Assembly (NCBI GenBank): GCA_031275815.1 | Contig: JAISOF010000002.1 | Location: 1 to 62,379, forward strand | Direction: 5' to 3' | Length of the DNA: 62,379 nucleotides | DNA from: Candidatus Nomurabacteria bacterium | GTDB lineage: Bacteria > Patescibacteriota > Saccharimonadia > Saccharimonadales > Saccharimonadaceae | In this document: positions 43,592-45,660 of the stretch, piece after piece | How positions within the stretch are numbered: the stretch's first letter is position 1 | Layout: each line of letters opens with the position of its first letter | The notes under the pieces: model-generated | Databases searched by the model: none | Told to the model about the DNA's origin: nothing | Seen by the model: the letters and a program-made list of their open reading frames with translations, nothing else | Translations under genes and position numbers: made by a program

Positions 43592-45660
43592 ATGCGATTA
43601 GCCAGAGAGAGAGAGAGAGAGAGAGAGAGAGAGAGAGAGGTTTTTCGCGCTGGCTAGGTAGTAAATGGCGTCATTTGGTTGGTTTTGTTGCTAGTTTGGG
43701 GTTATTTAGGGGTGTACGGCTGTTTAGGGCGAAACACCTCAATTTATCCAAACCTCTCACATACTCTAAGCCTCTATTTTTTACTGTGTTTCTTGTTTTG
43801 GTTGGGGTCTTGACTTTAGTGTTTTATCGCTCCCTCGCTCCAACCGAAGCCGCCACTTCAAATATTACTGTCATTGACAACAACCAAACCATCACCACCG
43901 CCCAAGATACCAACATCACCACCATCACCCGCACCTCCGAAGTCAACGTCACTGACACTTCCGCCACCTATGGCTACACCCTCACCGCCCAAATCTCTGC
44001 CAACAACCTCACCGGCGCCACCGTCACCATTGGCAGTGACACCTCTTCTGAATGCTCCAAAGCCACTCCCTGCGCCCTTTCTTCCGCTCCCACCAATATT
44101 CTCATCACCAACAATAACAACGCCACTGGAGCCCAAGGCGAAACCACCCTCTTTGAAGTCAAAATCACCATCTCCGCAAACTCCAACATCGGAGCTTATA
44201 CCCTTGACATCGCCTATGACGAAACCCCCATAGACCCCACCATTTACACCCCCTTCACCGCCAACAACGGTGGGCAAGGCACAGTTGTCACTGACCAAAA
44301 CATGATACCCATCAAATACACTGGCGACACCACCAACCCAATCTGGGCCAAGGCAGATATCAACAATGTTGGCAATGACTGGTTTGATTATGACAATAAA
44401 AAGTGGGCGAATGCAGTGACAGTCACGACGGACACATTAGATACCTACAAGAATGCTCCGGTCGGTACAGTGATTAACGAAAGCGACATTCTGGGTTACT
44501 GGACGTACATTCCAAGATATGAATACCAAGTCTGCCGCCCCAACGCCAGTGACTCCATCACCCTCACAGCTGGTCAATGCCAAGACGGCAATGGACAAGA
44601 CGTGCTCTCAACCGCTAGCCCATATCTCTTCAACATCCAATTCCAAAAATCCACCCAAAAAACCAACTACGACGGCACCACAGTCGGCGGCTGGACAACT
44701 CACCCCGCCTTTACTTTCGGCACCACCGAATTGAACGGCCTCTGGATCGGCAAGTTTGAATCCAGTAACCCCACCACCTCCAGAGTCACCGACGCCACTA
44801 ACATCTTCATCAAACCCAACCAACTCGGAGTCTCCTACAACAACGTCTCCGCCCAATTCACCATGTCCGTCAATCTCGGCAAAAGTGGCGATGGCACCGT
44901 CATCCCCACCAACGCCTCCCAAAACACCCACAACTTCAACACTTTCAACACCAGACTATCCAAAAATGATGACTGGGGAGTTGTAGCCTACCTTTCCACC
45001 AGCATCTATGGCAGAGGCACCAGTGAAGTCTGGATAAACAACTGTGATGACAACTCTAATAACAGTAGCATCGGTGGTGATACCTATAGCGACCACACCG
45101 GCTGGGCAGGTACTAGTGTAAGTGCTAGTCGCCAATCTTCAGGCTGCTCTGCCTACAATGGAGCCAATGCCACTATTGATGGTGCCTACCACACTACTCG
45201 TGGCCAACACGCCTCCACCACCGACAACGTCTACGGTATCTACGACCTTTCCGGTGGCAACCGGGAATACCAAATGGCCGTCCGCAACGCCGCTGCCAGT
45301 AGTTCCGGCTTCAGCCCATTCCCAGACTCCAAATATTACAACAACTACCCAGTCCCCCCATTTGCCACCAAACCAACTTGGAGTACCAGTACAAGTGAAG
45401 AATATTACAACAACGACGCCTGCACCTACCAATATTGTGGTGGCCAAGCCCTCCACGAAACTAAAACCGTCCAGTCGGTTTCGTCCGATACCCAGTCTTG
45501 GGGCTCGGACTACTCGTACTTTGTGAATTCGAGCTATCCGTGGTTTCTACGGGGTGGGACTGCCGGTAATGGCTCGGATGCTGGGTTGTTTTCTTCGCGC
45601 AGAAACAATGGCAATGCCGACTCTAACCACGGCTTTCGGGTAGTGGGGGGCGGCTTTTAG
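43592..45660 (+). CDS. Surface protein with FGE/C-type-lectin-like domain, phase-variable start (assembled OFF)
   Basis: The long frame is open from the AG tract to 45660. ATG 43592 with a good ribosome site begins MRLA, then Arg-Glu repeats, but as assembled ends at TAG 43655-43657; removing one AG unit joins it to the long frame (about 688 residues). That product has a cytoplasmic basic segment (RGFSRWLGSKWRHLVGFVAS), a transmembrane helix (LFFTVFLVLVGVLTLVF), RSLAPTEA, a Thr/Asn-rich module paralogous to the protein at 13638-15338, and a C-terminal FGE-sulfatase/C-type-lectin-like domain (YGIYDLSGGNREYQMAV, PWFLRGGTAGNG, NHGFRVVGGGF). Such domains bind ligands. The last ~185 nt use different codons from the rest. 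A TTG at 43675 is the only weak alternative start. Confidence 0.75.
43604..43639 (+). repeat. AG dinucleotide microsatellite (18 units) just inside a start codon
   Basis: 36 nt of AG, starting 12 nt after ATG 43592. Open in all frames. Eighteen units put the ATG out of frame; 17 restore it. Confidence 0.95.

Follow-up and report, generated by a model that had tools for sequence, protein, structure and literature searches.

An AG repeat as a probable translational phase switch before a Saccharibacteria surface protein with a DGR-like 3' end

Slipped-strand (SSR) phase variation and diversity-generating retroelements (DGRs) are each already known. In Helicobacter pylori, oipA (hopH), which encodes a surface protein, is described as carrying a CT repeat in its 5' region, with the number of units setting the frame (PMC10564699). 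The Mycoplasma mycoides mmyCI mod gene is described with a coding AG12/AG10 tract, an out-of-frame stop just behind it and an off/on change by two units (PMC3498834). DGRs have been reported in CPR genomes (PMC10221324, citing Paul 2017), and cultivated Saccharibacteria are described as living attached to other bacteria (PMC12206443).

Here we analysed a window of 62,379 nucleotides, contig C20 of a Saccharibacteria MAG (G000, hereafter the source genome; 1.07 Mb, 43 contigs, 93% complete). As far as its sequence can be read, one gene of this window very probably carries an AG tract that works as a slippage-driven translational phase switch, in a protein family with DGR diversification at the 3' end. 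Like oipA, the locus encodes a surface protein and has a dinucleotide repeat in its 5' region; like mmyCI mod, it has an AG tract in coding sequence with an out-of-frame stop close behind. It differs from oipA in phylum, in being one of about 30 such loci in a genome that uses both AG and CT repeats and in which no MutS was found, and in the DGR-type 3' end of its protein. The tract of mmyCI mod is internal and lies in a gene for restriction-modification, not for a surface protein. Relatives of the source genome share with the reported CPR DGRs the RT, bAvd, the template and an adenine-mutated variable repeat at the 3' end, but in them the target gene also has a slippage tract at its 5' end; we found no published report of such a pairing, a weak negative in that most subscription papers lay outside the search. 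The surface-wide set of dinucleotide switches in Saccharibacteria/Patescibacteria and its placement on DGR targets appear to be new.

The window locus and its second tract

The locus comprises the following features:

43574..43583, + strand: purine-rich, ribosome-binding-site-like GGGAGAAAGG before the leader ATG (from sequence)
43592..43603, + strand: leader start ATGCGATTAGCC (M-R-L-A; from sequence)
43604..43639, + strand: (AG)18 tract encoding (Arg-Glu)n, stop-free in all frames (from sequence)
43655..43657, + strand: TAG closing the present 18-unit ATG frame, 15 nt past the tract (frame reading)
43642..45660, + strand: surface-protein frame of 672 codons, stop at 45658-45660, joining ATG 43592 at 17 or 20 units
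43675..43677, + strand: in-frame TTG, a rival start, with no Shine-Dalgarno upstream (from sequence)
43774..43824, + strand: hydrophobic membrane/signal segment (LFFTVFLVLVGVLTLVF region; hydropathy 2.91 and an alignment of eight paralogues)

The sequence confirmed what the earlier note had described, namely that ATG 43592, behind the ribosome-site-like stretch, runs through 18 AG units into TAG 43655 and that the long frame, which is open through the tract and on to 45657, would be fused to this ATG by exactly one unit fewer; we add that 20 units would fuse it as well. A change in unit number toggles the frame: 18 units, the length read from one MAG consensus, lead to the stop at +15 nt, 17 to fusion and 19 into the third frame, which ends at a TAG 19 nt past the tract. 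On this reading the gene is in the off phase in the present assembly. The stretch gggagaaaggcaacac before ATG 43592 is identical in the paralogous loci C1b and C29, and ATGCGATTNNCC or a close variant of it is present at most AG-sense loci of the source genome.

Searches of Pfam (E 0.001), NCBIfam and PDB sequences with the surface protein gave nothing useful, and structure predictions (pLDDT 36 and 27) were too poor for a fold search. The earlier description of the protein as lectin-like thus gains no Pfam or NCBIfam support from the protein itself, but it agrees with the DGR-type 3' end described below.

A second tract lies on the opposite strand:

20983..21014, - strand: (AG)16 in the sense direction, with a leader ATG at 21036, now out of frame (from sequence)
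16085..20980, - strand: membrane-anchored frame of 1631 codons behind the (AG)16 tract, with a homologue in G003 that likewise has a tract

This locus shares its leader motif with that at 43592 and is one unit away from fusion; its protein shows weak similarity to SurA_N_3 (E=0.2). Apart from these two AG/CT tracts, the window has no dinucleotide repeat of at least 5 units; a first-order model expects ~5e-20 repeats of the length of (AG)18. The argument, made at first from two unrelated proteins with identical logic, that chance is unlikely is borne out, and it has become much stronger than first stated, since there are about 30 tract loci in the source genome and not two. Elsewhere in the window, a single ORF (9553-10584) appears to be a fusion, its N-terminal part matching ribonuclease HII and its C-terminal part YraN.

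Tract repertoire, phase and starts of translation

Two anchored patterns gave 16 and 15 matches in the source genome, or 30 distinct AG/CT tract loci once the C29 tract, which is split by GG and was matched twice, had been merged into one. Repeats of (AC)7 or (AT)7 and longer were absent from the whole genome (0 each). Read in the sense direction, the tracts are AG (Arg-Glu) at 14 loci and CT (Leu-Ser) at 16. Most AG leaders have ATGCGATTA-CC in common, downstream of a ribosome site, and several CT leaders share ATGTTGAGTAAAAGTAAG; in other CT leaders the ATG stands a few bases past a TATAAT-like box, as if these were leaderless. A palindrome-like GTTGTAAAAATTACAA(C) is found just upstream of the tract at the CT-class loci C2, C24a, C25c, C27b and C33d (L057, L061, L070, L063 and L073). 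A search for the leader pattern in database genome contigs gave no match, with the source's own records possibly excluded.

The frames that follow the tracts have 192 to 1722 codons where complete, and the Pfam names found behind tracts are TIG, ALK_LTK_GRD, Fib_succ_major, Laminin_G_3, SdrD_B, Chlam_PMP and List_Bact repeat. A membrane or signal segment lies within 110 codons past the tract at 26 of the 30 loci, compared with 248 of 4000 random window positions (6%; p ~1e-27). Of the four loci lacking such a segment, C2, C8 and C24a lie close to contig ends and C33a is a true exception, with an acetyltransferase-domain protein that has no membrane segment. One protein family stands behind both repeats (C27a, a CT locus, aligns with AG loci), so that the DNA repeat rather than the peptide seems to be under selection. 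Contigs C1, C5, C7, C16, C23, C25, C27, C35, C42 and C43 break within surface genes, some ending in the N-terminal half behind a tract and others starting in a C-terminal half without its 5' end; the true number of switchable genes in this genome is blurred by these breaks.

At the 24 loci where leader and long frame can be fused, 9 are in frame and 15 out, with one third in frame expected for a free-running phase. The starts for this count were hand-picked, and C8, which runs to the contig end, was omitted; C39 and C31, with two ATGs each, were counted from the ATG 12 nt before the tract, and the ATG 25 nt before it also gives a total of 9. Off-frame stops come soon after the tract. At C2, C7, C24a, C34 and C43 (5 of 30) the leader was fused to the long frame in no phase tested; these genes have, or appear to have, a start of their own past the tract. 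At four of these five there is a phase in which the leader terminates in an ATGA overlapping the downstream start, an arrangement that would allow translational coupling.

The main alternative is that the protein starts at TTG 43675 or at another internal start and that the tract is idle or merely 5'-untranslated. This TTG lies in frame ahead of the membrane segment, and the paralogue C17 has an alternative start codon near the corresponding place. We nevertheless consider an internal start improbable: the TTG has no Shine-Dalgarno before it, and the conserved ribosome site and ATG stand before the tract. Among 61 loci from all genomes examined in which the frame is open from the tract to a membrane segment (drawn from 110 rows, with shorter frames, later frame starts and weaker hydropathy excluded beforehand), 51 have no in-frame ATG between the two, 39 have no ATG, GTG or TTG there, and 55 have no start with a ribosome site. 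In the tractless complete paralogue C25:60703, the gene starts from a ribosome site and ATG of its own; 6 of the 7 paralogues in which no tract is visible are cut off by a contig edge and are for that reason not counted as tractless.

Relatives and changes in tract length

Among the 121 genomes of the family, tracts were found in 13 with the A-start pattern and in 21 with the G-start pattern (27 in the union, the source genome included); the patterns had 22 matches in G003 and 12 in G012 (same genus). Homologues of the passenger proteins carry tracts across genera: that of the 1631-codon protein in G003, and that of the window protein in G015, whose orthologue is 43% identical over 625 aa and has CT37 instead of AG. 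The MutS_V domain (MutS domain V) was detected in none of 41 genomes, including the source genome, and in 11 of 14 control genomes.

Variation in repeat length between close relatives was seen at one related locus, other than the window tract. G104 and G116 belong to one genus, consist of a single contig each and were counted as one event; their tracts are 24 and 28 nt long, with otherwise identical flanks. Their common stretch of ~20.2 kb consists of L309:11249-19964 (8716 bases, no difference), L128 (8101 bases, the tract locus) and L310:1-3368, whose 3368 identical bases are followed by 67 aligned bases at the outer end that hold ten mismatches. Inside it the two genomes differ only by 13 substitutions and by an indel of 4 bases (two units) in the CT tract. 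The substitutions fall within a variable region of 131 bases, 12 of them at template adenines, and this region and the indel lie at opposite ends of one gene, which encodes a prepilin-motif protein with an FGE-sulfatase domain and adjoins bAvd and a reverse transcriptase. The effect of this length change on translation is uncertain, because downstream of the tract there is an ATG that has a ribosome site. Sixteen of the 17 genomes in genus g8 match the DNA of the G104 locus somewhere, and only G104 and G116 do so at full length. The same 20.2 kb holds type IV secretion-like genes (TraG-type ATPases, CHAP and a T4SS pilin) beside the DGR, and the sequence adjoining it had no match in the stretches compared.

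Programmed ribosomal frameshifting on the AG repeat, which would join the frames with the DNA unchanged, would account for the many loci that are exactly one unit out, where such a shift would restore the frame. However, the shift needed varies from locus to locus, 9 of the 24 fusable loci are already in frame, AG and CT repeats are both in use, and in G104 and G116 it is the DNA tract that differs in length, all of which makes frameshifting even harder to sustain than an internal start. Slightly less credible still is an origin in assembly or sequencing errors, or in the decay of pseudogenes. The source is a MAG in 43 contigs with several tracts close to contig ends, the tract of C33b is degenerate and that of C29 interrupted; yet frames of 600-1700 codons remain open, the like arrangement recurs in several genomes, including the single-contig G104, G116 and G015, and AC and AT repeats are missing altogether. 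That the Arg-Glu repeat is a functional peptide such as a charged linker, with frame length secondary, can be dismissed almost outright: by the genetic code AG encodes only Arg-Glu whatever the frame, but CT (Leu-Ser) precedes like proteins at 16 loci, including one shared family.

The earlier note's proposal, that a surface protein here has an AG switch set out of frame, remains the best reading of the window locus, backed by the genome-wide pattern. Initiation would take place at ATG 43592 and ribosomes would pass through the AG repeat, reaching the surface-protein frame, by the logic of the frames, only at 17, 20 and so on units. Replication slippage may alter the unit number and so turn the gene on or off, the length change in G104 and G116 being an instance at a related locus; slippage would go uncorrected, probably because the lineage is without MutS. 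With like switches before about two dozen other surface proteins, the cell surface could become combinatorial.

The 3' end and DGRs of the relatives

The window gene has a further element that was absent from the earlier note:

45466..45657, + strand: DGR-like variable region at the 3' end, aligning with an AAC-rich partial copy at C30:30322-30513 of the source genome

When the last 300 residues of the protein were used as a profile, 17 places in the source genome matched, that AAC-rich piece of 64 codons among them. Differences of the window variable region from its sister copies are concentrated at template-adenine columns. Between the contig-edge copies C6 and C34, 25 of 43 such columns differ, compared with 5 of 149 elsewhere and 0 of 63 upstream; the window gene differs from C6 at 15/43 template-A columns and 10/149 others (p=1e-5) and from C34 at 18/43 and 13/149. 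Against C30, the only template candidate and an imperfect fit, the bias is weaker, at 17/41 for A and 28/139 for other columns (p=0.006). C6 and C34, being variable-region ends at contig edges, were dropped as templates. The source genome gave no match to a DGR reverse transcriptase at E 1e-8 (93% complete, 43 contigs), with matches in 8 of the 14 genomes searched, and we therefore class the window gene as DGR-like and not as a DGR target.

In G015, the orthologue of the window protein, with CT37 near its start, adjoins bAvd, a template and a reverse transcriptase, and template and variable repeat mismatch at 23 of 39 A and 0 of 141 other positions; fusion to the leader is impossible there, as the gene has its own ATG past the tract and an in-frame stop stands directly behind the tract. 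The G015 DGR locus contains or adjoins an ORF with a CdiA C-terminal-type domain and a sortase gene (L249:969-1355 and L294:6103-6696). The corresponding mismatches in G003 are 17/47 and 1/133, at a DGR target contig (C20 of G003) that is absent among the tract places listed for that genome. Clean adenine-specific differences between template and variable repeat were seen in G015, G003, G104, G116, G064 and G049. Diversification of the 3' end of this protein family by a DGR is thus supported by the sequences of relatives and, in the source genome, by the adenine-column statistics. The DGR targets of G104 and G064 contain the FGE-sulfatase domain. This domain has a C-type-lectin-like fold.

A reverse transcriptase is present in 6 of the 98 tract-locus stretches (G015, G049, G064, G104, G116 and G113), and in each of these genomes the tract near it is the only one counted. 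At L127, a search for a template/variable pair found none, though a reverse transcriptase is nearby. In G049, a CT tract of 47 bases is located at the 5' end of the DGR reverse transcriptase gene itself (L250:3055-4097), in frame with an upstream ATG.

The window gene would accordingly carry its on/off switch at the 5' end and be subject to scrambling at the 3' end. We lean, by a modest margin, towards the broader proposal that Saccharibacteria couple two engines on one surface gene, with the 5' slippage switch governing display and the 3' DGR rewriting the binding site, so that cells in the off phase would hold variants in reserve and display them later. If this is true, the tract before the G049 reverse transcriptase would make the mutator itself phase-variable. 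Some 30 switchable genes, most of them for surface proteins and some related to DGR targets, in a genome where MutS was not detected, would offer a concrete genetic basis, open to testing, for variation of the surface and perhaps of the host range as Saccharibacteria find, change or retain their hosts.

Repeats may also act before translation. In Neisseria, the nadA promoter is described as tuned by repeat length. The Haemophilus hifA/hifB promoter is likewise repeat-tuned. These systems are transcriptional and their architecture is unlike that of the window locus, but the AG spacers that separate TTGACA from TATTCT-like boxes in genus g20 are reminiscent of such tuning. AG tracts between TTGACA and TATTCT/TACTTT-like boxes were noted at L110, L111, L112, L118, L119 and L120 (genus g20: G096 and G072) and at L122 (G021), and in these three genomes they are possibly a transcriptional version of the switch. 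Their spacers measure 15, 17, 19 or 23 bases, and a ribosome site and start come next at six of the seven loci.
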